Source: Halomarina rubra (GTDB lineage Archaea; Halobacteriota; Halobacteria; Halobacteriales; Haloarculaceae). Taken from it: a stretch of DNA of 64,000 nucleotides. The position numbers and the translations under genes are program-made. Position 1 is the stretch's first letter, and each line of letters begins with the position of its first letter. Below, piece after piece: positions 3,802-63,991 of the stretch. A model generated the notes under the pieces. The model ran no database searches and was not told where the DNA came from. It was given only the letters and a program-made list of their open reading frames with translations. The DNA lies in NCBI RefSeq assembly GCF_023699475.1, contig NZ_JALXFV010000007.1:265537-329536 (forward strand), given 5' to 3'.

Positions 3802-5660
3802 TGACGGATAACGACTCTGAAGACGGGACAGGAGACAGCCCTCCCGACAACCACGGTGGCGGCCCGTGGCTGCCACCCGAAGCGAACGAACAGTTCGACC
3901 CGCTCGCGCACGCTGGGCTCGAAGCGACTACCGAGACGCCATTCGTCGTCGTTCCCCGGGGCGGCGCACGAGAGGTGGGTCGGAGTTGCTACCACGTCGA
4001 GACGCCTTATTCGACGTTTCTCATCGACTGTGGGCTCAACCAGGGCAGTGGCGGGCAGTTTCCTGACTTTCGCGGCCTCGACCGAGAACAAATCGATGCG
4101 GTGTTCCTGACCCACGCACACATCGACCACGCTGGTGGGCTACCAGTGCTGGAGAACCAGGGCCTGCTCGACGATGAAGCTCCAATTCTCACGACCGCGC
4201 CGACCGCACAGATCGCACATACAATGCTGGAGGACTCGCTGAAGATTCACCGGCGAGAGGCCCGACGACCGGGTCGGTCCCAGCAGTTCTGGTCGCAGGA
4301 TGTCACCGACGTCTGTGCACGCTTCGAACCAGTCGACTACGGAACGGACCGCGTCGAAGCGTATGCACCTGTTTCGGAGAACGACCCCACCACGTTCGAA
4401 CTCGGTGCAGCGGGCCACCTGCTTGGAAGTGCGTGGGTAGCGCTCCAGACGGCAGGCCACAGCATCGTGTTCTCTGGCGATCTTGGGGGACGAGCGGGCT
4501 ATCTTCCGGATATTGCCAAGCCCCCGAGCGCTGATGCGCTCATCACCGAGTCGACGTACGGGAACAAACACTCCCACACCTCAACGAGTACGGCCCAGTC
4601 CAATCTCTTTGAGGCGATTGCAGAGGCTGTCGAACGAGGGGCACCAGTGCTTATCCCCACGTTCGCGGTCGGCCGCGCACAGATGATTCTGCTGTTACTC
4701 CAACAGCGTCTTCACACGCTTCCTGGGTCGCTCACAGACGACGTCCACATCGTGTTGGACGGTCTCGCCCAGGAGGTCACTGACCTCTACCATCTCCATG
4801 CGAGCGATGACTCGCTGTTCGACGAGAGTCTGGTCAACATGATCCACGAGAGTGGGGTCTCTCAGCCGTTTTTCCCTGACAACATCACCGTCCCTGACGA
4901 TGACGCAGACCGACAACGCGTCTTCGACGCATACGACCCTGTAGAGGGGACGAACATCCCAATCATCATCGCCCCGTCGGGGATGCTCACCGGCGGGAAC
5001 TCTCCCCGATACCTCGCTGAGCTAGCGGCACGCTACGACGATGCTGCAGTTGTCCTCACGGGGTACCAAGCCGTCGGGACCGCGGGCCGTGCCCTCCAAT
5101 CCGCGACACGGGCGGATGGTGAAGCCCCGACGGTGACACCCGATATCGACCCCATCACCCCACCGGGCGATTGGCCGTCCGCAACCGGCTCGGTCGGGTG
5201 GGTCCAAGAACAAGAGACAGGCGACGCACGCCTCACGATTACCGTCCCGACTGAATGGATTACGACGGTCGATGGGCTGAGTGCGCACGCGTCACAGGCG
5301 GGCCTCCTCGAGTTCGCACGCCACGTTAGTCCAGACACCATCGGGTTGGTGCACGGCCCTCACTACGCTCAGGAGGCGCTCCAGTCCCACTTGGTTGAGA
5401 ACGTCGAGACAGTCGATCAGGTGACGCGTCTCGCACCCCTCTCTCCATTGGCGATCAACGCCGAGACAGCCAACGAGATGACGACGAAGGCCCTCGAACC
5501 ACAACCTTCTGAGCAGGCGACTCTCGATGACCAACTCGACTCGCTGCGAGAGACGATGACCGCACTCTCCAGCGCCGTCGCTGAGGACCGCAACAGCGGA
5601 CTCACCGAAGCCGAGGTTCGCGCAATCGTCCGCGAAGAGCTAGAACGCACACAGCAGTAG
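3801..5660 (+). CDS. Metallo-beta-lactamase/beta-CASP ribonuclease-like protein
   Basis: This 619-residue protein has the metallo-beta-lactamase motif THAHIDH at residues 104-110. Further metal-site motifs GHLLGSAW and FSGDLG follow near 205 and 225. The beta-CASP motifs appear in order: the acidic ITESTYGN, PTFAVGRAQ, then PSGMLTGGNSPRY, then the His motifs GLSAHA and LVHGPH. Members of this family (RNase J, CPSF73-like) cut RNA with two zinc ions. Compared with archaeal RNase J it has an acidic N-terminal extension of about 45 residues and a coiled C-terminal tail of about 80. No KH domain is seen. Its operon partner is the unknown gene at 2920. Confidence 0.88.
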   Translation: MTDNDSEDGTGDSPPDNHGGGPWLPPEANEQFDPLAHAGLEATTETPFVVVPRGGAREVGRSCYHVETPYSTFLIDCGLNQGSGGQFPDFRGLDREQIDAVFLTHAHIDHAGGLPVLENQGLLDDEAPILTTAPTAQIAHTMLEDSLKIHRREARRPGRSQQFWSQDVTDVCARFEPVDYGTDRVEAYAPVSENDPTTFELGAAGHLLGSAWVALQTAGHSIVFSGDLGGRAGYLPDIAKPPSADALITESTYGNKHSHTSTSTAQSNLFEAIAEAVERGAPVLIPTFAVGRAQMILLLLQQRLHTLPGSLTDDVHIVLDGLAQEVTDLYHLHASDDSLFDESLVNMIHESGVSQPFFPDNITVPDDDADRQRVFDAYDPVEGTNIPIIIAPSGMLTGGNSPRYLAELAARYDDAAVVLTGYQAVGTAGRALQSATRADGEAPTVTPDIDPITPPGDWPSATGSVGWVQEQETGDARLTITVPTEWITTVDGLSAHASQAGLLEFARHVSPDTIGLVHGPHYAQEALQSHLVENVETVDQVTRLAPLSPLAINAETANEMTTKALEPQPSEQATLDDQLDSLRETMTALSSAVAEDRNSGLTEAEVRAIVREELERTQQ

Positions 5661-18952: not shown

Positions 18953-19114
18953 AGGTTGGATTCGCTGCCAAATTGAAAATCAGTAGGCGTCGCTGACCGA
19001 GCTGAGTAGGTATCGAACGCGTCTTTTCCGACTCACACTGGTGCTGTAATCGCGCCTTCTATGTAGCACGACAAAACTGGCGGAACGGCGAGTGGTTGGC
19101 TCGCTATTTGCTGC
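18953..19114. other. Intergenic between merA and repeat copy 1
   Basis: No gene or clear regulatory site is seen. The end of merA and the first hairpin repeat lie on either side. Confidence 0.5.
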
Positions 19115-19215
19115 ACTCACACTCTCTGTCTACCAAATCCGGCAAGCAACAAGTGGGGTTCTTTCGCGTCATTCCAAGCTGGATCAGCTGATAGACATGT
19201 GCTGCGAGTGTATCG
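19115..19215 (-). repeat. Hairpin cassette repeat, full copy 1 (reverse orientation)
   Basis: Reading the minus strand: CGATACACTCGCAGCAC, GTCTATCAGCTGATC, then GACGCGAAAGAA, TGCCGGAT, GGTAGACAGAGAGTGTG. This is left module plus right module of the dispersed repeat, with several substitutions. It lies 60 bases upstream of the ACR3-type gene. Confidence 0.75.
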
Positions 19216-19274
19216 GTCTGGGTGGAGAGACACGTTCGCAGATGGTTTTCGGTACTCACTCGTAGCTGGAGTCA

Positions 19275-20267
19275 ATGGAAACCAAAGCGGGGTTACAACG
19301 CCATCAGGTCGTCATCTACGCCCTCGCTGTGGGACTCGCGGTCGCCATCGGACTCGTCCTGCCGGGAACTGCCTCGGTGTTTGAACGGCTCATCAACCCG
19401 GTGTTAGCAGTACTCCTGTACGCGACGTTCCTCGAAGTGCCGTTCACCGAACTCCGCCGGTCGTTCACCAACCGTCGGTTCATCGCCGGCGCGCTCGGGA
19501 TGAACTTCCTCGTCGTGCCAGTCGTCGTCTTCGGGCTCACCCGCGTGCTCCCAGACGACCCCGTCATCCTCGTCGGCGTGTTCATGGTGCTGTTGACGCC
19601 CTGCATCGACTACGTCATCGCCTTCACCGACATCGCCGGTGGCGACGTCGGGCAACTCACCGCCGTGACACCCCTGTTGATGCTCGTCCAGTTGGCGCTG
19701 TTGCCGGTGTATCTCTGGGCGTTCATGGGGCGACAAATCGCCGAGGCCGTCGACCCAGCACCGTTCGTCAAGGCGTTCCTCCTCCTCATCGCCCTGCCGC
19801 TGACACTCGCGTGGCTCACCCAATTGTGGGCCGACCGCTCCGAGACGGGTGAGCAGTGGCAGGGCCTGATGGGTTGGCTGCCGGTTCCGATGATGGGCGC
19901 GACACTACTCGTCGTCATCGCCTCACAACTCCCGCGCGTCCAGGGGTCCTTCGGGCAGATCGTGGTCATCGTCCCTGTCTACGTCGCATTCCTCGTCATC
20001 ATGCCCGTCATCGCGCGAATCGTCGCCGCGCGACTCCGACTTCCCGACGAGGAGAGTCGGGCACTCGTGTTCACGGCGGTGACGCGCAACTCGCTGGTGG
20101 TGCTGCCGTTGGCGCTCGCACTGCCAGCGGAGTACGCACTCGTCCCGGCAGTCGTCGTCACACAGACGCTCGTCGAACTCGCCGGCATGGTCGTACTCAC
20201 TCGACTCGTCGCATCGTGGGTCTGGGAGCGGTCGGGAACGATGATACGGAACGTCGGTCATCAGTGA
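19275..20267 (+). CDS. ACR3/SBF-family arsenite-type efflux transporter
   Basis: A 330-residue protein with about ten TM helices of the bile-acid:sodium symporter superfamily. LLTPCIDYVIAF in the fourth helix holds the conserved cysteine region of Acr3 proteins. In this context (next to merA and metal ATPases) arsenite export is the likely role, but the related sodium symporters cannot be excluded. No arsenate reductase or ArsM lies nearby. The gene sits between two repeats in the same orientation, and its TGA stop (20265-20267) forms the first bases of the second. Confidence 0.75.
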   Translation: METKAGLQRHQVVIYALAVGLAVAIGLVLPGTASVFERLINPVLAVLLYATFLEVPFTELRRSFTNRRFIAGALGMNFLVVPVVVFGLTRVLPDDPVILVGVFMVLLTPCIDYVIAFTDIAGGDVGQLTAVTPLLMLVQLALLPVYLWAFMGRQIAEAVDPAPFVKAFLLLIALPLTLAWLTQLWADRSETGEQWQGLMGWLPVPMMGATLLVVIASQLPRVQGSFGQIVVIVPVYVAFLVIMPVIARIVAARLRLPDEESRALVFTAVTRNSLVVLPLALALPAEYALVPAVVVTQTLVELAGMVVLTRLVASWVWERSGTMIRNVGHQ

Positions 20268-20372
20268 GAGACTCACGCTCACTATCTGGCAATACCGGCA
20301 GGCAATGCGATATCTTTCATCCACACCGACCCGGAATGACTCAGCTATTAGACCCGTGTCGAGAGTGTATCG
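20265..20372 (-). repeat. Hairpin cassette repeat, full copy 2 (reverse orientation)
   Basis: Minus strand: CGATACACTCTCGACACG, GTCTAATAGCTGAGTCAT, GGTGTGGATGAAAG, TGCCGGTATTGCCAGATA, GTGAGCGTGAGTCTC. It begins, on the plus strand, with the stop codon of the ACR3-type gene. Confidence 0.8.
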
Positions 20373-41632: not shown

Positions 41633-41830
41633 ACAGTGGTACTCCGTGGCAGGAGGGAGATATGTTTCGGCAGTGTGCGAACGGTTCGACCGGAAACAGC
41701 CGCGGGCTTGCAGCACCGACCGAGTAGCGGGTCAGCCACCCGGTTCCACGCTACCATCGTTGGCCACCGCAGGGGATGTTCCACACGCATCGAGGGAACA
41801 CAGAGTGTGCCTCTAACCGTCCAGTACCGG

Positions 41831-42262
41831 TCAGACTGCTCGATGCAACAACCGTCGGCCAAGCCACTCGCCGCCCCCAACGAGCAGGGCGACGGCAAGG
41901 ATGAATGGCCAGAACGTCACGTAGACTGTCATCGGGGTCCATGCGAACGATGGGGACGCCCCGTTGAGTGATGCGTATGCGTTGGACGTGAGGACGCCGC
42001 CTATCGCCAGTAGACTGAGCGTCACCACGCCGGGAAGTAGTAGCCCCGCTCGCACGTACAACCCGGTGAAACACGCTCCGACGACGAACCCCCCGAGGAG
42101 CGCCCACAGCATATAGGGGTCCCAGAGTGCAGTCGGGGCACCAGCTACGATACGAACGCCAACCGCGAGGAGGGCATGGAGGACACCCCCGATGACGGTG
42201 AGCTGGAATCCCTTGGAGGCGGACTGTGGGCGATGAATTCGGGGAAGGAACTGCGAGGACAT
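41831..42262 (-). CDS. Four-helix membrane protein
   Basis: 143 residues from the ATG at 42262 (SSQFLPRIHR); upstream codons lack bias. Four hydrophobic segments are evident. No family recognised. Confidence 0.6.
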   Translation of the reverse strand: MSSQFLPRIHRPQSASKGFQLTVIGGVLHALLAVGVRIVAGAPTALWDPYMLWALLGGFVVGACFTGLYVRAGLLLPGVVTLSLLAIGGVLTSNAYASLNGASPSFAWTPMTVYVTFWPFILAVALLVGGGEWLGRRLLHRAV

Positions 42263-42365
42263 GACGTGAGATACTATATTCACCTCAATAACAGTTCGGG
42301 AGACTGCCATGGCACGCTTCCTATGGGTAAGTCGCTCTGAATCGACAAGGGTGAACCCGTTGCAC

Positions 42366-42405
42366 TGTTTGCCGGTTTTGTTAGACACAGAGCGTGAGTG
42401 TATCA
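42366..42405 (+). repeat. Hairpin cassette repeat, right half only (H1)
   Basis: TGCCGGTTTTGTTAGACACA, GAGCGTGAGTGTATCA: the right module alone, in forward orientation. Its last TCA (42403-42405) is the stop codon, on the minus strand, of the lipoprotein gene that follows. Confidence 0.8.
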
Positions 42406-43023
42406 GTCAGCGTTCTCGACAGTAAGCGCAAACCCCCACGTGAATTGCTGGGAGTCATCGGAGTCAACAGGCCACGTTCGATACGGCTGTGAAAACCGGT
42501 ACCTTCCGGGCGAGAGGCACGTACCACTGTTCGACGGTGCGCCCCACAATGAGAGCGTTATCGAGTCGTCTTCACCCGGCGCGAGCCGCATTCGCGTCAG
42601 TCCCGAATCGACGACGAACGGGTCGGTGGCGACTCGCCAACAGCCCGGTGAGACTGGCTTTGGACTATACGAGGGGGGAACGAGCAGCAGTTGTGGGTCA
42701 GTGCTCTCGCTGAATGTCTCCGAGAACACGCGACTGTGTCCCGTCTCGAACATACGAGACTGCTTCGTCGTGTTCGTGAGCGTGACACGGAGGCGAGCTG
42801 GATGGTCCGTTGTTACCTCCGGTTCGACCATCTCGACTGAGAGGACGTCGTTCGGAGCGCTATCTACTGATGTGAGGGCAACCGTTCGAGGACTGGCCAT
42901 CGGTGTTGATTCGGGGTCTCCCGGCGAACGGCGGGGGGTGGATGCCTCCGACGAAAGTTGCGTACACCCTGCGACGCCCGCGAGTCCAGCGGTGAGGGTG
43001 GTCAGTACCGTTCGGCGGTTCAT
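42403..43023 (-). CDS. Lipoprotein carried between two half repeats
   Basis: 206 residues from the ATG at 43023. NRRTVLTTLTAGLAG and lipobox VAGC mark a Tat-type lipoprotein. The mature domain shares ARLRVTLTNTTKQSRMF, SPGCWRVA, LAPGEDDSITL and LSPGRYRF with 39917..40441. Its stop codon is part of the repeat half at 42366-42405, and another half (43100-43159) lies upstream of its start. Confidence 0.75.
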   Translation of the reverse strand: MNRRTVLTTLTAGLAGVAGCTQLSSEASTPRRSPGDPESTPMASPRTVALTSVDSAPNDVLSVEMVEPEVTTDHPARLRVTLTNTTKQSRMFETGHSRVFSETFSESTDPQLLLVPPSYSPKPVSPGCWRVATDPFVVDSGLTRMRLAPGEDDSITLSLWGAPSNSGTCLSPGRYRFSQPYRTWPVDSDDSQQFTWGFALTVENAD

Positions 43024-43099
43024 GTTATACCACAAACTGGTTCGGGGTAAAGGAGTTGTGTAGCCCCAAGTCCTCACTGTATCCATCTCGATTCGCTGT

Positions 43100-43159
43100 G
43101 ATACACTCGCGGCACAAGTCTAACAGTTGAATCAGTCGAGTTACGGTGAAAGAAAGGTG
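43100..43159 (+). repeat. Hairpin cassette repeat, left half only (H2)
   Basis: TGATACACTCGCGGCACAAG, TCTAACAGTTGAATCAG, then CGGTGAAAGAAAGGTGG: the left module in forward orientation, ending just before the recombinase gene. Confidence 0.85.
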
Positions 43160-43167
43160 GCACTCAG

Positions 43168-43983
43168 GTGATGCAGCGTCCACCCCCGTCCAGTCGACGC
43201 ACTAGCCCCGCCCGTAATTGGCGCCCCGACCGCCACCGCGAGTCCCCGCGTACCACCGGCTCCCAACACGGTTTCTGGCGTGACCAGCTCGTCGATGACG
43301 GGTCGGTCGCGAACTCCAAGGAGGACGCACTCTCAGACCGGCAGTTCCAGTTACTCCTGGAGGGAGCCCGCCGACTCGACGCTCCGTACGCGAATCAGGC
43401 GCGGTTCATCATCTTCGCGACCGGCCGGCTGGGCATGCGGGCCGGTGAGGTCGCCCACATGAGCGAGCAGTGAATCGACTGGCGCGAACGGACGATCCAC
43501 ATCCCGCCGTTCGACCGGTGTACGAAGGGCCAGGAGGACGGCGAGCCGTGTGGCTACTGCATGAAGCGCGCCGAGTCGATTGCCAAGCACAACGTCGGGA
43601 TCACCGTCGAGCAGGCACTGTCGACGCGCTGGGCTCCCAAGACGGCCGCCGGTGCGCGCGCCATCCCATTCGATTTCGAGACGCGCGTCGAGATGGCCAT
43701 CGAGCGGTTCTTCCAGACACACGCTGAGTATCCCCACTCGCGGGTGAGCATCAATCGGCGCGTCAACCGGGCGGCCGAGGCCGCCGAGGGGCTCGACAGC
43801 ACGCGTGTCTATCCACACGGCCTGCGTGCGACCGCCAGTACGTTTCATGCCGCTCGCGGGCTCACTGGGCTACCTCTCCAGGCGTTCATGGGCTGGGAGA
43901 AGCTCGCGACTGCCGAGACCTACCTCAATGGGACGACCGAGGCGACCCGTCGAGCACTGCGGTCGGTCCACTCCTCGCGATAG
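43168..43983 (+). pseudogene. Tyrosine recombinase (integrase) split by an in-frame TGA
   Basis: The frame opens with GTG at 43168 and runs to TGA at 43471-43473, then continues in the same frame to 43983 (271 codons in all). The catalytic Arg lies in GMRAGEVAHMS. The second part has CGYCMKRAES (a CxxC typical of haloarchaeal integrases), the HxxR motif PHGLRAT and the Tyr in AETYLNGT. The stop replaces what is probably Trp (EQ*IDWR). Apart from this one codon the enzyme looks whole, although its N-terminal core-binding domain is short. It lies between two inverted left halves of the cassette repeat. Confidence 0.8.
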
Positions 43984-43989
43984 CACGCC

Positions 43990-44052
43990 GACTTTCTTTC
44001 ACGCCGGTTCGGTGTGACTCAGCTGTTAGACACGTGCCGCGTGTGTATCGAT
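43990..44052 (-). repeat. Hairpin cassette repeat, left half only (H3)
   Basis: On the minus strand: CGATACACACGCGGCACG, TGTCTAACAGCTGAGTCAC, then CGGCGTGAAAGAAAG. It is the inverted counterpart of H2 across the recombinase gene. Confidence 0.85.
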
Positions 44053-44055
44053 TGG

Positions 44056-44205
44056 TCACTTGCTCCGAGCGAAGAGTAGAGTCAGCACGGTGAGTGCGCT
44101 GACACTGATAGCGGCGACGAGTGGATTTCCACTACTCTCCGCGAAGACGGCGAAGAGGAAGCTTCCGGAGACGATAGCTCCGAGGAGGGCGAAGCGTTGG
44201 TCCAT
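44056..44205 (-). CDS. Tiny membrane protein between two half repeats
   Basis: 49 residues (MDQRFALLGAIVSG...) with two hydrophobic helices; good codon bias. Its stop lies a few bases from repeat half H3 and its start 45 bases from half H4. Function unknown. Confidence 0.6.
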   Translation of the reverse strand: MDQRFALLGAIVSGSFLFAVFAESSGNPLVAAISVSALTVLTLLFARSK

Positions 44206-44249
44206 ATAAGTCTGAAGAATACTTGAGCAATTAGCTGTTTTGCTGAGGC

Positions 44250-44288
44250 GTTAGACTCACGCTCTCTGTCTAACAAAACCGGCAATCG
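44250..44288 (-). repeat. Hairpin cassette repeat, right half only (H4)
   Basis: On the minus strand: CGATTGCCGGTTTTGTTAG, ACAGAGAGCGTGAGTC. With H3 it frames the tiny membrane-protein gene. Confidence 0.8.
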
Positions 44289-54827: not shown

Positions 54828-54887
54828 GACTTTCTTTACGGATGATTGACTCGAATCAAACGTTAGACACGTGCTGCGAGTGTATCA
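54828..54887 (-). repeat. Hairpin cassette repeat, left half only (H5)
   Basis: On the minus strand: TGATACACTCGCAGCACG, TGTCTAACGTTTGATTCG, then CCGTAAAGAAAGTCAGG. Its first TGA is the stop codon of the gene at 54885. Confidence 0.8.
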
Positions 54888-55085
54888 CTCGGTCCAGTCG
54901 GTCATTTCCAATTCTTCGAGTTCGTCTTCACTGATTTCCTCGAACTCGTCTCCACCACACTCGTGACACTCCCCGTGGGGAGTGGCAATGGTACCTGACT
55001 CGTCAACCAACGCGGCAGATTCGGTGCTACAGTCCTTACACCGTACGAACAACCGCTCGCCACCTCCGGATAACTCGTCTGACAT
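54885..55085 (-). CDS. Small acidic zinc-ribbon protein between half repeats
   Basis: 66 residues. CKDC and CHEC form a zinc ribbon; the C-terminal third is almost all Glu and Asp (EISEDELEELEMTDW). Its TGA stop is the first triplet of repeat half H5; half H6 lies upstream of its start. Confidence 0.7.
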   Translation of the reverse strand: MSDELSGGGERLFVRCKDCSTESAALVDESGTIATPHGECHECGGDEFEEISEDELEELEMTDWTE

Positions 55086-55170
55086 ACGATGGTACAGAAG
55101 TCAGTTGGACTTCACCACCAAAGGTGTAACTACGTTATCCCATGTTCGGAACTGCCGAAACCAACCGTAC

Positions 55171-55203
55171 CGTCAGACCCACGCTCTACGTCTATCAAGC
55201 GAG
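55171..55203 (-). repeat. Hairpin cassette repeat, right half only (H6)
   Basis: On the minus strand: TTGATAGACGTAGAGCGTG then GGTCTGACG. The outer part of a right module, lying upstream of the zinc-ribbon gene. Confidence 0.65.
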
Positions 55204-55205
55204 TG

Positions 55206-55648
55206 AATGAGTGACCGTGCCGCGAATCTACATCGGTCCTTCATTTTATCAGAAAGTACTTACTTAACCAATAGTGATTTCCCGCATAAACCGGCGGTCC
55301 CTGCTCGCGTCTCTCATGGGGTGGCGACGGGGAGTGACGTGTGGATGGACTATCCCTGTCTTCCGGAGGAACCGCCGCCGATTTGATGGAAGGGGGGCAA
55401 CATATTCATAGTATCACTTGCAGACTCAGGAGTTCTCCGAATCTACCGAACGAGGGGCAGAATGTACTGGTATACCCACATTCTGGGGTTCTCGGTTGGA
55501 CGCGTCGCATGCAGCCACCACGCCCTTTCAGAGAGTATCGTTGGGGTACAGGTGGCAGAAAGGGTTACAACCAGACGAGGGGAACGCTCAGATTCCCAAG
55601 TCGTGCTGAGACGGTGCAGGTCGGTTGCTTGGGAGAGGTGACAACCGC
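55206..55648. other. Intergenic, no supported gene
   Basis: Several frames stay open but none has steady haloarchaeal codon bias or recognisable protein character. Confidence 0.4.
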
Positions 55649-55819
55649 ATGCTCGACAAACTCATCGTCGTCTGTGAGGCGTGTCGACAGGTGTACACTG
55701 CTCGGCGACGGGCCGATGGCAGTTTCATCCTCCCCACGAGGGATGGGAACTGTCGGTGCGGAGGGACTGCGTTCAGCAAATACGCTGGTGGTATGGGGAA
55801 CAGTCCCACTCCCTCCTAA
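55649..55819 (+). CDS. Small zinc-ribbon protein, paralogue of 60205
   Basis: 56 residues. VVCEACRQVYTARRR, GSFILPTRDGNCRCGG: a CxxC...CxC zinc ribbon. The gene at 60205 has the same blocks (YTARERDDGSFILPTTDGKC), so the two are paralogues at opposite ends of the cassette region. Confidence 0.65.
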   Translation: MLDKLIVVCEACRQVYTARRRADGSFILPTRDGNCRCGGTAFSKYAGGMGNSPTPS

Positions 55820-55891
55820 CGCGGCAGGCTTTTTTCGCCGCGGTGGAGGCGAATCGAGTAAATACCAAGAGAGATGGCGAACGAATCACGC

Positions 55892-55925
55892 TCGATAGAC
55901 CTACGCTCTCTGTCTACCAACACAG
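55892..55925 (-). repeat. Hairpin cassette repeat, right half only (H7)
   Basis: On the minus strand: TGTTGGTAGACAGAGAGCG, TAGGTCTATCG. It lies about 70 bases after the zinc-ribbon gene. Confidence 0.65.
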
Positions 55926-56092
55926 GAACTGAACTTCTCTAGCAGATAATGCTATGCAACCAGTATATTGAGTTCGTTTCAACCCTTTGTCCTAATTGCA
56001 GTGCAAGGGCTGTCAGAGGCACGTTCCACCCATCTCTTCCAACTACCAACATTCCTCGGTGTGTAGTTGGCGTAAGTAACAGGAGTCCCCAG

Positions 56093-56764
56093 TTACTGCT
56101 CAAGTGTCTGTAGTGCTCTCTCGTCGTCGAGGACCGTATGTTGGACCAGAAGGTCGATACCACGCCGAAGTCGTTCGGATGCCGCTTGATGACTGATATT
56201 TAGCTCGGCTGCGAGCACGTTGAGATCCGTTCCTCGCGGCACATCGAAGTATCCTTCCTGTGTCGCACGGACGAGGAGTGTCCGCTGCTTTTCAGTTAAC
56301 CCGTACGTCGTTGCGTTCCCGTCACTGCCGGTCTGTTCGTACTTTCGCTTGAGCGTGAACTCGAGGTCGTGGCACGAACACCACTCGTGAATGTGTCGCA
56401 ACGCGTCTGTATCGGGAAGTTCGACCTGCAATGTCCATCCTTCGTAGGTGCCAGTACCCTGCTGGACGATACCTCCGGCCTCGACAATAGTGGGATAGAC
56501 ACTCTGAGCTCTCCCCTCACCGACGTGTTCGACCTGGTACAATCGTCGGTCGCCTGTCGTCGTTAGCACACGCGGTGCTGTCACGGTCGAATCGTGGTGG
56601 AGGGCGGCTTCGAACGACTCGACGTCACTCGTTTCCGCCCAGAACATGAGGAGGTGTTCGCCGTTGGCGGTGGTATCCGATTGTTCCCAGATGACCCGTG
56701 CCGACGGCACTGCCCGGAGGGTCGCTAAGAGAGTCGGTTGCTGAATAGTGAATGTGGCAATCAT
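56093..56764 (-). CDS. Bat-type HTH_10 transcription regulator, paralogue of 63293
   Basis: 223 residues from the ATG at 56764. The N-terminal sensory half begins MIATFTIQQPTLLATL. The C-terminal HTH_10 has YGLTEKQRTLLVRATQEGYF, NISHQAASERLRRGIDLLVQ. The gene at 63293 has the same architecture and many identical blocks (FTYQQPTLLEAL, DISHQAASERIRRAMDLLIE), so they are close paralogues flanking the cassette array. Confidence 0.85.
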   Translation of the reverse strand: MIATFTIQQPTLLATLRAVPSARVIWEQSDTTANGEHLLMFWAETSDVESFEAALHHDSTVTAPRVLTTTGDRRLYQVEHVGEGRAQSVYPTIVEAGGIVQQGTGTYEGWTLQVELPDTDALRHIHEWCSCHDLEFTLKRKYEQTGSDGNATTYGLTEKQRTLLVRATQEGYFDVPRGTDLNVLAAELNISHQAASERLRRGIDLLVQHTVLDDERALQTLEQ

Positions 56765-57381
56765 TGGCGTTTTCAGCTGAGTGGGTGTATTCTGTGCCCG
56801 TGAGAAGCGCACAATTTATCATAACTGTTGTGAAAGGCGACGAATTTGCCCACAGACTGATGATTGCTAGCGTTGAAATAGTAAGGTCGAGTTCCAACAG
56901 CGGTGGTTTTTCGTTCAATACTGACCTTCTGAGTAATGCTTATTACACGTACGTTCATCACGCCGACTACCCTTGGCCACCCGCGGACGTCCATCCCCTG
57001 GGCTCAACGGACCTTCGAGTTGCTCACCACTCGGAGGGAGTGTGTGTTGTGACCAAGGGTGATTCGTGCCCAACGCTCTCATGTCCATGCCAACCGGGCA
57101 GGGTGCATGAGGGCGGGCCCGAATGGAGCTATGACTCGCCGTCAATATGTGACAACCAGACCCAGTTGATTGGCTGGTAGGTCCAAAAGAACCAACGAAA
57201 TTGCGTTGACTGGAGGGATTCGGTCTCCTCTCTCCTACCAGTACCACCACACGCTCGAGTTGGACAAGAAATCGCGTTACCCGCCACTATTGGTAGGCCG
57301 AGGGCGTGTGTCTATCGCGCGGCTTCCGATGGTGTACCAGTTCGTCGGAACGTTCACTACAACTAACACACAAGCAATTGC
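56765..57381. other. Intergenic, no supported gene
   Basis: About 600 bases in which no frame has convincing bias. A TATA-like region just after 56800 may serve the divergent regulator gene. Confidence 0.4.
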
Positions 57382-57654
57382 ATGGCTACCCGTCAGTCCT
57401 CCGCCCTCCGACCCCGCAGCTTTGTCGTTGCTGGAATCGTCTTCTTGCTCAGCACCATTCTCACGTATAGTGCGGTGTGCGGGCCGATTGGAGGGTATGA
57501 CGGGCCCTCTGGAATTCGACACATTATCGTGAACCCTCTCGCGCTCGGCGTCGCATACGGGAATGGATGCGTCGCTCAGGTCGCAACACTGCCGATAGCA
57601 GTTGGACTGGTTTGTCTCGGAATTGGGGTCTCTCGGTGGAGAAGCGGGCGATAG
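57382..57654 (+). CDS. Small membrane protein ending in a repeat
   Basis: 90 residues with two TM helices and a loop (CGPIGGYDGPSGIRH). Its TAG stop (57652-57654) lies inside the first bases of the hairpin repeat (CGATAGACTCGCGGCAC). Confidence 0.65.
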   Translation: MATRQSSALRPRSFVVAGIVFLLSTILTYSAVCGPIGGYDGPSGIRHIIVNPLALGVAYGNGCVAQVATLPIAVGLVCLGIGVSRWRSGR

Positions 57655-57756
57655 ACTCGCGGCACGGATCTACCAGCTGGGTCACGCTGAATCGGTGCGA
57701 AAGAAAGCCACCTCGTCCCTTACAGTGATAATAGGCAGAGAGCGTGGTCCACCCCG
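57650..57756 (+). repeat. Hairpin cassette repeat, full copy 3
   Basis: CGATAGACTCGCGGCACG, ATCTACCAGCTGGGTCAC, CGGTGCGAAAGAAAG, then AATAGGCAGAGAGCGTGG. Degenerate in the right module. Lies between a plus-strand and a minus-strand gene that converge on it. Confidence 0.8.
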
Positions 57757-57782
57757 TGGTCCGTTCGCTCGTCGTCCTATGA

Positions 57783-58169
57783 TTACTCGGTCGTAGTGAT
57801 CGCTCTGTCTCGCTGAGCAGGGGACGGAACCCTCGTGAAGCGGTAGGTCGTCTCATCCAGCTCGGCGAACACCTCCAAGACCTGATCTTGGCGCATCTCA
57901 GTGACCTCAATCTCGTCTCCGACTTCGGAGAGGACGTACTCTTTCGGAGGCCCAGATGTGTTGGTGAGCGTCGCTACGAATCGATTGGCGTTGCCCATCT
58001 GCCCGATCCGTACCGTAGCCGTACAGGACAGGTCTTCGGACTCGTAGCAGTAGTACTCTGAGTGGGTTTTGATGGTTCCGTCCGTGTCAGCATCGAGAGG
58101 GTCAATGACCCCCGAGCAGCCAGCAGTGACTGTCGTTCCGAGCAGTGAAAGGAGGGCACGGCGTTTCAT
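57783..58169 (-). CDS. Lipoprotein, 128 aa
   Basis: KRRALLSLLGTTVTAGC: Tat-type signal and lipobox at Cys18. Mature domain beta-rich with a cysteine pair (YYCYESEDLSC). Lies between repeat copies 3 and 4. Function unknown. Confidence 0.7.
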   Translation of the reverse strand: MKRRALLSLLGTTVTAGCSGVIDPLDADTDGTIKTHSEYYCYESEDLSCTATVRIGQMGNANRFVATLTNTSGPPKEYVLSEVGDEIEVTEMRQDQVLEVFAELDETTYRFTRVPSPAQRDRAITTTE

Positions 58170-58224
58170 ACGGAACCATACCTATTGGTGAACAAGTACC
58201 TTCTGCTCACTCAAACTCGTACCG

Positions 58225-58330
58225 TTCGACTCGCGGCACACTTCTACCAGCTTCGTCACCGCGAGTCGGTCTGAAATCAACCCTGCTCACCGATTGCCGG
58301 TGATGATAGACAGAGAGCGTGGGTCTATCA
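58225..58330 (+). repeat. Hairpin cassette repeat, full copy 4
   Basis: CGACTCGCGGCACA, TTCTACCAGCTTCGTCACC, CGGTCTGAAATCAACC, CACCGATTGCCGGTGA, TGATAGACAGAGAGCGTG, GGTCTATCA. Lies between two divergent lipoprotein genes. Confidence 0.85.
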
Positions 58331-58384
58331 ACCAAGCTCTCGGATTGACCGAAAGCTTATTCCTGTTATTGCGTAACTGAAATC

Positions 58385-58876
58385 ATGAACGGTCCCCTCC
58401 ACAGACGTAGCCTACTCGCAGGTCTTAGTACAGGTGTCGTATCTACTCTCGCAGGGTGTTCCGTATTTGGTGATTCTATTGCTACGGAATCAGAACGCTA
58501 CCGAATTGGCGATATACGCTTAACGAGCCGCGACCCAGAGCCACATCAACTGGACCTTCTGATTCGTCGTGATGGGGACATCATTCACTGGCAGAGTTAC
58601 GATGTCCGGGCATACGACCCAGAGAAGCGTGGTGGCACGATGTACACGACAGTCGTTCCCGCAACAGAGTTCGGTGGTTGTACGCCGGGAGTGTATAATC
58701 TCTCTGCGCGACTCGAAAATGGAACTCAGCAGACCTTCCAAGGGAACGCTGACGATGCGTTTGACGGCACAACTCGGGAAATCCGCATCAGGGAACACGC
58801 TCAGAGATTCAGTGTCGCGGCAGGTGTGACCGAAAACACGTGTGAATCGACCACATCTCCTGAGCAGTCTCTGTGA
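58385..58876 (+). CDS. Lipoprotein ending in a repeat
   Basis: 163 residues. HRRSLLAGLSTGVVSTLAGC: Tat-type signal and lipobox. Mature domain beta-rich with SERYRIGDIRLTSRDPEPHQ, resembling the lipoprotein at 30609. The stop codon TGA (58874-58876) is the first triplet of repeat copy 5. Confidence 0.75.
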   Translation: MNGPLHRRSLLAGLSTGVVSTLAGCSVFGDSIATESERYRIGDIRLTSRDPEPHQLDLLIRRDGDIIHWQSYDVRAYDPEKRGGTMYTTVVPATEFGGCTPGVYNLSARLENGTQQTFQGNADDAFDGTTREIRIREHAQRFSVAAGVTENTCESTTSPEQSL

Positions 58877-58979
58877 TACACACGCGGTACGTGTCCAACA
58901 GCCGAATCTCGCCCAACAGCGTGAAAGGAACTGTTCGCGTCGATTGCCGGTAATGATAGACAAAGAGCGTGAGCCTAAC
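58874..58979 (+). repeat. Hairpin cassette repeat, full copy 5
   Basis: TGATACACACGCGGTACG, TGTCCAACAGCCGAATC, AGCGTGAAAGGAAC, CGATTGCCGGTAATGATAG, ACAAAGAGCGTGAGCCTAAC. Starts with the stop codon of the preceding lipoprotein gene. Confidence 0.85.
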
Positions 58980-59102
58980 ACGAAGTCTCCCTGACAGAAG
59001 ACGAGAGTAGGATGAGGGCAGAAACAGGCGGTTGTGAGTCGGACCATTCGAAGTCTCGAATTACGTCGGTAGATTTGTAACCGGGTAGACGAACGGAAAT
59101 CT

Positions 59103-59288
59103 ATGGCAGGTCCCCGCCTCTCGTACATGCTGCTTCTGCTCGCAATCGTTCTGGTGAACGTCGGCCCACAGGTCTATACTGGCGAGTCAATCACGGGATT
59201 GGGCGTGCTCTGCGCAATCCTTGGAGTCATCGCGGGCTTCGCTGAATTGGTAATAGAGCGTAGGAGACCAGAGGGCAGCACTCACTGA
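59103..59288 (+). CDS. Small membrane protein, 61 aa
   Basis: Two hydrophobic helices separated by a short loop (GPQVYTGESITG), basic C-terminus. Lies between repeat copies 5 and 6. No family recognised. Confidence 0.6.
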   Translation: MAGPRLSYMLLLLAIVLVNVGPQVYTGESITGLGVLCAILGVIAGFAELVIERRRPEGSTH

Positions 59289-59356
59289 ACACGACCTCTC
59301 TTCTCCACCCCAAGACTCGGCTCACTAGGACGACCCACAAACAAACGATAGCTCAC

Positions 59357-59464
59357 CGTTAGACTCGCGGCACCTGTCTAACAGCTGAGTCACTCCGACC
59401 CAGCGTCAAAGAAACCCTGCTCGCCGATTGCCGGTATTGTTAGACGTAGAGCGTGGGTCTATCA
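59357..59464 (+). repeat. Hairpin cassette repeat, full copy 6 (best conserved)
   Basis: GTTAGACTCGCGGCACC, TGTCTAACAGCTGAGTCAC, AGCGTCAAAGAAACC, CGCCGATTGCCGGTATTG, TTAGACGTAGAGCGTGGG, TCTATCA. The outer 26 bases of each side match as inverted repeats at 17 positions, including GTCTAACA against TGTTAGAC. Its final TCA is the minus-strand stop codon of the next gene. Confidence 0.88.
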
Positions 59465-59977
59465 GTGCGTTTCATCGCCGGATGGCTCGCGGATGGTGTT
59501 CGAGTTATACGCTGGGCATCCACCAACGGCGCGGTCGACTTGGTCACACCCGCCTCGTACCCTGACGTTCAGTGGGTCAGCTTCGTCGATGCCCCAGTAC
59601 GTTCCATACTGCACGGTCGTCATGACGCATGCTGGTGAGCCGTCAGTGGCTTCCTGTAGATTGAACTCTCGCCACTCGTCGCTGTCGACGCGGGCAGCGA
59701 CCACGTACTCGCCAGCAACGTCATCCCACGTACAGTCAGCGACGGCACCCGGAATCGTGTTGCCCTCCATCTGCTTGACGACGTGCGTCGATTCATGGAC
59801 CAGCGTTCCGTCGCGGGTGACGCGCAACTCGAACGTGTGGCTCGCGGTTTCATCCCAGTTGCTCACCGAAAGCCAGCCGAGTTTGGTCCGTTCGAGAAAC
59901 GGCACTGAAACGGAGCAGCCCGCGAGCATTGAAGTACCGACTACACCGAGCGAAGCAAGGAGGGCACGGCGTTCCAT
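59462..59977 (-). CDS. Lipoprotein ending in a repeat
   Basis: 171 residues from the ATG at 59977. ERRALLASLGVVGTSMLAGC: Tat-type signal and lipobox. Mature domain beta-rich (FELRVTRDGTLVHE). The stop codon (59462-59464) is the last triplet of repeat copy 6. Confidence 0.75.
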   Translation of the reverse strand: MERRALLASLGVVGTSMLAGCSVSVPFLERTKLGWLSVSNWDETASHTFELRVTRDGTLVHESTHVVKQMEGNTIPGAVADCTWDDVAGEYVVAARVDSDEWREFNLQEATDGSPACVMTTVQYGTYWGIDEADPLNVRVRGGCDQVDRAVGGCPAYNSNTIREPSGDETH

Positions 59978-60032
59978 ACCGGAAATCCATGCGCTGGTGA
60001 ATAAGTACCTTCTGTCGAAGACCAGCGACGAC

Positions 60033-60136
60033 TGATACACACGCGGCACAGGTCTAACAGCTGAGTCACCGCAAACCGGCGTGAAATGAAGTCGCGCGTC
60101 GATTACCGGTATTGGTAGACAGAGAGCGTCAGTCGA
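60033..60136 (+). repeat. Hairpin cassette repeat, full copy 7
   Basis: TGATACACACGCGGCACAGG, TCTAACAGCTGAGTCACC, CGGCGTGAAATGAAG, GTCGATTACCGGTATTGG, TAGACAGAGAGCGTC. Lies between the lipoprotein start and the minus-strand zinc-ribbon gene. Confidence 0.88.
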
Positions 60137-60204
60137 CTAGCGGCCACATATCCTGGAGGCCACCCTATGATATCGGCGGTTCACGTAGGCGTGGGATTTT
60201 CCGA

Positions 60205-60375
60205 TTAGTCAGAGGCGGTTGCTTCCGAACCGCCTGTGTCGAACGCACCGACGGAGTCCTCTCCACATCTGCATTTCCCATCAGTCGTCGGCAAGATGAA
60301 CGATCCGTCATCGCGTTCTCGAGCAGTATACGCTTGCCCGCACTCGCTACAGAGAACGATCGTCCGCCCGTTCAC
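60205..60375 (-). CDS. Small zinc-ribbon protein, paralogue of 55649
   Basis: 56 residues from a GTG at 60375. TIVLCSECGQAYTARERDD, GSFILPTTDGKCRCGE: a CxxC...CxC zinc ribbon with clear similarity to the gene at 55649. C-terminal tail acidic. Confidence 0.65.
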   Translation of the reverse strand: MNGRTIVLCSECGQAYTARERDDGSFILPTTDGKCRCGEDSVGAFDTGGSEATASD

Positions 60376-60556
60376 TGGTGAGCCCCTGCCTGTTGGCCTC
60401 TTCCACGTCCCATGGTCCCGAAGGAGATCTTGTTCATTGTCTAGTCAATGGTCATCCACGACAGGTTGTAATGCCACTTCCCAACTGTTTGGGGTCGCCA
60501 CGATTCACACCCCGCACAGTTGGGTGGTGGTCACTTGTTGTAGACGCGTGTACGTG

Positions 60557-60823
60557 GTGTTGGTCACATCTTTGACTCACCATGAGGATGCCGACGACGA
60601 CAACTGTCGAACCTGCGAAGCCGTCACACTGGTAACAGACGACGGAGCCGACCCATGCCAAGAGACGATTGTGGATGACGACCAGTTCGTTCGCTGTGAA
60701 TCCATCGCTACTGGCAGGTACCGGCTCTCTCCAGAGGCTGGTGGGGTAGTCACAAACTGGCTTTGTCGACGCCACAGAGACCAACTCTCGGATGTCATCA
60801 CGGAGACTCTCGATTCGTGCTGA
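60557..60823 (+). CDS. Small acidic Cys-containing protein
   Basis: About 88 residues if started at the GTG at 60557 (TTG at 60572 is the alternative). CRTCEAVTLVTDDGADPC then ETIVDDDQFVRC and NWLCRRHRDQL: spaced cysteines and His suggest a zinc site. Upstream codons in the same frame lack bias. Confidence 0.5.
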   Translation: MLVTSLTHHEDADDDNCRTCEAVTLVTDDGADPCQETIVDDDQFVRCESIATGRYRLSPEAGGVVTNWLCRRHRDQLSDVITETLDSC

Positions 60824-60861
60824 GCCCCCCGTGCGACGTACCGTCGTCAACGACTGACTTC

Positions 60862-60960
60862 GATACATTCGCGCGGCACATAACAAACAGCTGCGTCACC
60901 ACAAATCGGTGTGAAAACAAGTCGCGCGTCGCCTCTCGAAATTGGTTGGTAAGGAGCACG
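60862..60960 (+). repeat. Hairpin cassette repeat, full copy 8 (degenerate)
   Basis: CGATACATTCGCGCGGCAC, AACAAACAGCTGCGTCACC, CGGTGTGAAAACAAGTC; the right module (CTCTCGAAATTGGTTGGTA, AGGAGCACG) is hard to recognise. Last copy of the array. Confidence 0.6.
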
Positions 60961-63132: not shown

Positions 63133-63306
63133 ATGTCCCAGAGATCACCACCAATGACCTCAGAAGAACAGTTCAAGGGCCAACTTGACGATATTGTCGC
63201 ATTGGCACGAGACAACGGTGTCAACGTCGAAGGTGCGTGGTCGTGCAAACTCGAGAGCGATCGGTACGACTACGAAGTCCTTATCTCGGCGGTCAATCCG
63301 GCGTAA
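63133..63306 (+). CDS. Small hypothetical protein, 57 aa
   Basis: Acidic; QFKGQLDDIVALARDNGVNV then a beta-hairpin (WSCKLESDRYDYEVLIS). Looks like a conserved haloarchaeal small protein. Its end overlaps the end of the convergent regulator gene by 14 bases. Confidence 0.6.
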   Translation: MSQRSPPMTSEEQFKGQLDDIVALARDNGVNVEGAWSCKLESDRYDYEVLISAVNPA

Positions 63307-63991
63307 GTGACTGTTGAACCCCATCAGGTTCAGAATCGTCACCGTCTCGGCCCTGGGCAATCGTATGTTCGATGAGAAGGTCCATCGCCCGACGGATTCG
63401 TTCGGACGCCGCTTGATGAGAGATGTCCATCTCTTCACTGATAGTTTCTAAGTCGACGGCTTGAGGGACCTCAAAATACCCATATTCGGCAGCGTGTAAG
63501 AGCGCATCACGCTGTTTGGTTGTCAGTCCGAAGTGATTCAGCGCGTCACCATCGGGGGTGGGTTCATACTTCTTGATGAGGTCGAACTGGAGATCGTGTT
63601 CCTCACAGGTCGCATAGAAATGCTGAAGAGCATCGTTGTCGGGGAACTCGGCTTCCATCGTCCACCCACGGTGGGTGGCGAAGCACTCACGGATGATTCC
63701 CCCGACAGCGACGATGGTGTCGTAGATGGACTTCGCACGGCCTTCTTCGACTTGTTCTAACTGATATAAGCGACGATCGGCGACCTCCGTCAGGCAGTTC
63801 GGTGCAGTCACTGTCGGATCGTCGTGCAGGGCCGCGTCGAATGCCTCGAAATCGTCTGTTTCAACCCAGACGAGTAGCAACATCTCGTCGTTCGGTGTTG
63901 TACTCGAGACTTCCCACTCGACACGTGCATCGGGGAATTGCTGTAACGCTTCCAGCAGTGTCGGTTGTTGGTACGTGAATCTGACAATCAT
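63293..63991 (-). CDS. Bat-type HTH_10 transcription regulator, paralogue of 56093
   Basis: 232 residues, ATG at 63991 close to the window edge. Sensory half begins MIVRFTYQQPTLLEAL. HTH_10 has FGLTTKQRDALLHAAEYGYF, DISHQAASERIRRAMDLLIE. Compared with 56093 it has a C-terminal acidic extension. The pair could arise from duplication that spanned or framed the cassette region. Confidence 0.85.
   Translation of the reverse strand: MIVRFTYQQPTLLEALQQFPDARVEWEVSSTTPNDEMLLLVWVETDDFEAFDAALHDDPTVTAPNCLTEVADRRLYQLEQVEEGRAKSIYDTIVAVGGIIRECFATHRGWTMEAEFPDNDALQHFYATCEEHDLQFDLIKKYEPTPDGDALNHFGLTTKQRDALLHAAEYGYFEVPQAVDLETISEEMDISHQAASERIRRAMDLLIEHTIAQGRDGDDSEPDGVQQSLTPD

Follow-up and report, generated by a model that had tools for sequence, protein, structure and literature searches.

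The classic means by which bacteria capture and shuffle single genes is the integron, and in engineered recombinase-mediated cassette exchange (RMCE) lox or FRT variants with common arms and incompatible spacers flank an exchangeable cassette. In the dif modules of Acinetobacter, inversely oriented core sites for tyrosine recombinases bound the modules; exchange requires matching spacers, single modules are replaced in place and toxin–antitoxin cargo is common (PMC13141974). Here we analyzed a 64,000-nt stretch of the Halomarina rubra genome (hereafter the window; NCBI RefSeq GCF_023699475.1, contig NZ_JALXFV010000007.1; G000:C14:265537-329536 in our numbering) in which small genes alternate with a 105-bp repeat. 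These repeats belong to a genome-wide mobile cassette system of the haloarchaeal genus Halomarina, assigned in this analysis to the family Natronomonadaceae, and are not integron attC hairpins. We put the probability at about 0.8 that the system is site-specific and that a small tyrosine recombinase acts on its two kinds of half-site, right (R) and left (L), by R × R and L × L recombination.

Within the open literature (subscription journals and preprints lie outside this scope), we found no relevant account of such a cassette system, or of an integron-like or dif-module one in archaea. The text of the archaeal integron paper (Ghaly et al. 2022, PMC9668308) contains no word starting with halo-, and a review of archaeal tyrosine recombinases does not mention cassettes. 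A survey of integrons in halophiles that included archaeal genomes reports clusters of attC sites lacking integron integrases (CALIN) in Halorhodospira, a bacterium.

The 105-bp repeat consists of two abutting half-sites, L (TGATACACTCGCGGCACATGTCTAACAGCTGAGTCAC...GTGAAAGAAA) followed by R (GATTGCCGGTATTGTTAGACAGAGAGCGTGAGTCTATCA). Half-sites also occur alone, positioned such that the unit reads R-gene-L. This is the mobile unit: singles and arrays alike open with R and close with L. Neighbouring units meet midway through a 105-bp repeat, which gives every cassette two unlike sites and not one attC. Junctions between L and R fall into discrete lengths, a long type of ~105 nt and compact types of ~63 and ~50 nt, the latter being frequent in the long arrays of genome G007. 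Loci L099 (G007:C2:597001-617000), L097 and L102 are such arrays with mostly compact junctions, and L099 alone carries well over a dozen cassettes.

Each half-site contains a 27-bp core with mutually inverted arms, as expected of a tyrosine-recombinase core. The R core reads TGTTAGAC-NN-AGAGCGTG-AGTCTATCA and the L core, when flipped, TGTTAGAC-NN-GTGCCGCG-AGTCTATCA, so that both have the same arms around a different, invariant 8-bp centre (the overlap). Across 176 R and 160 L cores, no block was better conserved than these centres, which matched exactly in 136 and 95 cores, respectively, figures that are somewhat flattered because cores were admitted only with at least 5/8 matching centre bases. 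R and L cores are inverted relative to each other around each cassette, whereas within an array the R cores are mutually direct repeats, as are the L cores. The preliminary description of this stretch, made from its letters alone, was right that the left and right modules are inverted copies of each other, a complementarity that would follow if both halves were binding sites of one enzyme in opposite orientation. In a few mixed sites (L062 8913–9384, L100 9554–11286, L075 9699 and L088 10988), an inner flank of the L type adjoins an overlap of the R type, or vice versa, and the cassette sits inverted within its platform.

The array of the window reads R-gene-(LR-gene)x5-L, with six units between 57291 and 60916:

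57291–57317 (+): R core opening the array, with overlap AGGGCGTG (7/8); repeat family D4, profile match at 57279–57316
57318–57648 (+): cassette 1, 90-aa membrane protein, open reading frame (ORF) 57382–57654 (+); a copy elsewhere in the same genome (L066 13749–13439) has 89% identity
57649–57752 (+): LR junction with intact L and decayed R half, located by profile search
57753–58222 (−): cassette 2, lipoprotein ORF 57783–58169 (−), no Pfam family above the cut-off
58223–58330 (+): LR junction, long type
58331–58873 (+): cassette 3, lipoprotein ORF 58385–58876 (+), no Pfam match
58874–58980 (+): LR junction, long type
58981–59356 (+): cassette 4, 61-aa membrane protein at 59103–59288 (+), no Pfam match
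59357–59464 (+): LR junction, long type
59465–60032 (−): cassette 5, lipoprotein with ORF end at 59462 (−), no Pfam match
60033–60139 (+): LR junction, long type
60140–60860 (+): cassette 6, zinc-ribbon ORF 60205–60375 (−) and a small Cys-rich ORF; copies in the same genome in array L068 (91% identity over 722 bp) and in L074 (82%)
60861–60916 (+): L half-site ending the array, with no recognisable R half after it

Where six full repeats had previously been listed (57650, 58225, 58874, 59357, 60033 and 60862), coordinates and orientation hold, but both halves are present only at 58225, 58874, 59357 and 60033; at 57650 the left half is intact but the right one has decayed, and at 60862 a left half stands without a recognisable right one. 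The array start, a somewhat degraded R-only half-site, had been overlooked. With such decay at its end sites, the array may now be frozen in content.

To locate breakpoints, we compared every pair of same-type sites. This revealed 43 site pairs with a common outer flank but different cassettes and 13 with a common cassette end but different flanks. Because some of the 43 reflect a conserved linker at ~80% identity and not true orthology, we gave weight to the near-identical pairs. In the sharpest of these, core bases up to position 10 track the flank and those from position 19 track the cassette, which places the crossover within the 8-bp overlap. Two chromosomal flanks, X and Y, each near-identical to a flank in a relative, border the recombinase locus of the window (42369–44285):

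42369–42405 (+): R half-site of the recombinase platform at flank X, which is 99.8% identical to Halomarina oriensis locus L083
42406–43098 (−): cassette, lipoprotein at 42403–43086 (−)
43099–43160 (+): L half-site directly upstream of the recombinase gene
43168–43983 (+): tyrosine recombinase (Int) pseudogene with one in-frame TGA
43990–44050 (−): L half-site directly downstream of the recombinase gene, convergent with the upstream L
44051–44248 (−): cassette, 49-aa membrane protein, 100% identical in another H. oriensis platform
44249–44285 (−): R half-site of the recombinase platform at flank Y, which is 99.0% identical to H. oriensis locus L081

Flank Y (45400–44252) shares its 99.0% identity with L081 of H. 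oriensis JCM 16495 (G002) across 1149 bp. Next to it lie the 198-bp cassette in the window genome versus 994 bp with two other cassettes in L081; beyond these, homology restarts at L and spans the recombinase gene (87% over 950 bp). Flank X (41800–42407) is nearly identical to L083 across 608 bp, again with different cassettes. The second H. oriensis copy of the 198-bp cassette has an unrelated outer flank. Two features proposed for a cassette array were thus borne out: dozens of loci have these repeats around different genes, and the content between repeats differs in relatives despite near-identical flanks.

Contigs C11 and C13 of the source genome run out within one shared, unassembled cassette; the R cores to which it is joined differ, and from the overlap on the two contigs are identical for 61 bp. 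One cassette therefore stands at two R cores within a single assembly, either as two copies or as a mixed population. Two H. oriensis contigs end in a shared cassette likewise, over a shorter stretch. Contig ends at or within ~45 bp of sites (the end of C11 and both ends of C13 in the source genome; the ends of C13 and C8 in G002) suggest that cassettes are repeated or that the cultures sequenced contained mixed arrangements.

The source genome (4.07 Mb, 16 contigs) contains ~40 repeat copies, far more than chance would give: nhmmer E-values reach 1e-16, and the R core is matched exactly 33 times, compared with 0 for a reversed control pattern, which had zero matches in Halomarina as a whole. 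Searches of seven further Halomarina genomes recovered repeats in four, and searches of 32 other genera recovered none. When we scanned 391 genomes of the class with a short R-core pattern, four Halomarina genomes had 33, 28, 12 and 3 matches and each remaining genome had 0 or 1. Five Halomarina genomes contain 384 sites and 147 cassettes (median 564 bp), counted in regions that were picked because sites were present.

The cargo is diverse: 85 cassette proteins match 60 Pfam families, nearly all once, and many others have no family. Many predicted cassette genes encode lipoproteins and many encode membrane proteins, and two cassette proteins match defence-system profiles. We noticed no transposase among them, the 25 of the 60 Pfam families that were listed being without one, and Rfam gave no match in the window. 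Based on a rough gene caller, 53 cassette genes run along and 84 against the R→L direction; given this mixed strand, cassettes presumably carry their own promoters.

The recombinase gene of the window, a member of PF00589, is closely bracketed by two convergent L sites, beyond which cassettes lie on either side. Its in-frame TGA stands where the intact H. oriensis copy has a Trp codon; that copy lies at 5006–5821 of contig NZ_WSZK01000010. In both genomes the upstream L site ends ~10 bp before the int start. Open int genes in the same convergent-L layout are present on H. oriensis C2 (271 aa) and in G007 (285 aa), with fragments elsewhere, and convergent L sites also frame the recombinase on H. 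oriensis C26, where two tandem L half-sites lie upstream of the gene (L081 3356–3476). In G277, which belongs to another family, a 75%-identical recombinase gene also lies between L sites. Their inner arms read TCTAGGA in place of TCTAACA, with both 8-bp overlaps as in Halomarina; from its sequence, one unit beside the gene looks like a VapBC-type pair. The location of the recombinase gene, together with the altered arms in G277, makes its product the probable cognate enzyme. A second recombinase of the source genome (G000:C16:7709-8509), open and 63% identical, lies near a contig end without visible sites and might act in trans for this genome with its broken window copy.

All catalytic residues (R-K-HxxR-W-Y) are conserved in the recombinase. 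The structure model, of moderate confidence (predicted local distance difference test, pLDDT, 67.8), has only the catalytic domain (residues 65–270) after a disordered N-terminal stretch, and its nearest folds by Foldseek are Tn1549 integrase and XerA, with an IntI structure only at rank 13. NCBIfam models at E ≤ 1 gave only weak matches to XerA, XerC, XerD and PRK00283 and no integron integrase. Among characterised proteins, phiCh1 Int1 is the closest relative (42% identity over 221 residues, E = 9e-61); its gene lies in a segment annotated as invertible, through which tail fibres are switched. The tail-fibre genes of phiCh1 are repeat-rich, with many inverted repeats. The recombinase is also 50% identical to the HCTV-5 integrase. 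Homologues at 40–50% identity occur in about a quarter of Halobacteria, and we saw no similar flanking inverted sites beside those examined or beside the 57% homologues of G036 and G396. A search for close relatives among viral contigs gave none, and plasmids and phages gave only relatives below 60% identity.

A convergent L pair also frames an Orc1/Cdc6-like initiator gene, in the manner of the recombinase, at L055 9154–10152, L094 9733–10730 and L111 437–1435; such genes between L sites were found in G000 and G001. By analogy with the Rep backbone of dif-module plasmids, this L-flanked unit is possibly a replicon module.

Based on these observations, we propose that the small tyrosine recombinase would cut double-stranded DNA at the edges of the 8-bp overlap and would pair R with R and L with L. 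As the R cores, like the L cores, are direct repeats within an array, either reaction would remove or insert one gene and one short linker; the two would leave as a circle that could re-enter at any R or L core. Simultaneous exchange at R and L would swap the cassette in its docking place, as in RMCE, and the different overlaps should prevent R × L recombination, which otherwise would invert the gene. We lean, with some reserve, towards a broader reading in which Halomarina carries a natural form of RMCE: an integron-independent archaeal route of gene capture, with a haloviral tail-fibre invertase as its source, whose two fixed and mutually incompatible overlaps set the direction of each single-gene cassette and allow its excision, stacking or swapping.

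The preliminary description had instead proposed that each repeat can fold into one long bulged hairpin, and had counted a lack of compensating stem changes, together with an unchanged gene order in relatives, as refuting the cassette idea. Of five sites folded, four gave folds no better than those of shuffled sequences (z = −0.3, −0.8, 0.1 and 0.9), and the best fold of the fifth (z = −3.2) is not the long hairpin. In 33 long sites, 84.6% of cells were paired compared with 84.5% after shuffling partners, and their covariation score was matched by 128 of 500 shuffles; 49 compact sites gave 510 pairs versus 514.8 when shuffled, and a separate covariation test of 46 long sites had the same outcome, with none above shuffles. 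Missing compensatory change and the fold scores together led us to reject the single-stranded hairpin or attC reading of the repeats, and a functional single-strand route is unsupported. Because gene content is not static and compensating stem changes are absent, we keep the cassette idea and drop the attC idea. A true integron, with an integron integrase recombining LR repeats as folded attC sites, would fit the single-gene cassettes in tandem arrays, the site directly at the 5' end of the recombinase gene and the complementary L and R arms with unpaired centres, and the arm GTTAGAC is compatible with the integron box GTTRRRY. It is nonetheless very unlikely, since neither site type shows compensatory change, most fold scores lie near zero, no integron-integrase model matches, the supposedly unpaired spacer is invariant in sequence, gene strand is mixed and each cassette ends in two sites.

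It is also unlikely that the units are fixed dif-type modules moved by the host Xer enzyme (XerA), with the local recombinase as an unrelated passenger. Acinetobacter dif modules offer the closest known logic for this, and two Halomarina genomes (G001 and G006) have sites but no recombinase of the Int clade; yet several genomes, and a second family in which the arms but not the overlaps changed, have Int closely framed by an L site at either end, and among the 391 genomes of the class sites are confined to Halomarina, although Xer is, to our knowledge, general in archaea. Scarcely credible is an origin as non-autonomous transposons inserted side by side, with R and L as terminal inverted repeats. 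Single R-gene-L units do exist and R and L are imperfect inverted repeats, but we saw no unit with a transposase, junctions come in discrete lengths (~50, 63 and 105 nt), breakpoints lie in the 8-bp centre and not at the ends, and cassettes swap in place between near-identical flanks. Against site-specific exchange by the small recombinase, we weighed four points: we saw no R-L platform lacking a cassette; relatives yielded no direct orthologues of the window array; the few mixed sites imply that R × L exchange is not fully barred or that the overlap is convertible; and in G001 and G006 either another enzyme is in use or the sites are fossil.

The window contains further sites in a minus-strand two-unit array (54833–55929) and as two copies at 19109–20372:

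54833–54887 (−): L half-site, end of the two-unit array
54888–55169 (−): cassette, 66-aa Cys-rich protein
55170–55233 (−): compact LR junction, ~63 nt
55234–55892 (−): cassette of the two-unit array, in part 82% identical to a cassette of L099
55893–55929 (−): R half-site, start of the two-unit array
19109–19215 (−): LR junction
19216–20264 (+): cassette, permease of the Sodium Bile acid symporter family at 19275–20267 (Pfam SBF, 5.5e-18)
20265–20372 (−): LR junction

The permease cassette has a 90% identical counterpart in the same platform of H. oriensis (L087). Either side of the six-unit array region lie related helix-turn-helix (HTH) regulator genes (56093–56812 and 63293–63991) with a common 72-bp stretch, repeat family D3; relatives carry 64–70% similar copies. 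These copies, apparently from paralogous HTH genes, were all that a search for orthologues of the array's left flank returned, and we rejected them.

If the proposed system is real, haloarchaea capture genes with a recombinase non-homologous to that of integrons and with another site logic, a case of convergent evolution. It would explain in part the scattered small-gene content of Halomarina (lipoproteins, membrane proteins and permeases) and would supply a ready-made tool for directional cassette exchange in halophiles. The two-overlap rule is open to direct test.

Among known systems, the phiCh1/phiH1 Int1 inversion resembles the Halomarina system in having a related, catalytic-only recombinase and a gene between inverted sites, but it flips tail-fibre genes, whereas Halomarina has genome-wide sites and exchangeable cassettes. 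Engineered RMCE likewise uses two sites with common arms and different spacers; the Halomarina system is natural and chromosomal and has arrays. Integrons share the capture of diverse single-gene cassettes, their stockpiling in arrays and a site beside the recombinase gene. Unlike integrons, Halomarina has no IntI match and no sign of a folded single-strand site; each of its cassettes has two heterotypic sites, cassettes flank the recombinase gene to either side and platforms are many and dispersed. Acinetobacter dif (pdif) modules share inverted core sites that bound gene modules and replacement in place. They rely on host XerC/XerD and 11-6-11 sites with many variable spacers, whereas Halomarina has two fixed 8-bp overlaps and a dedicated recombinase between its sites, and its 27-bp core combines similar arms with an 8-bp conserved centre in place of the 6-bp XerC/XerD spacer. 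In dif modules, C and D modules both bear genes; in Halomarina, every other module has mostly shrunk to a tiny linker without a gene, the exceptions being the L-flanked modules with a recombinase or Orc1/Cdc6-like gene, and single genes thereby behave as units. The closest known counterpart is the dif modules of Acinetobacter and, functionally, the integron.

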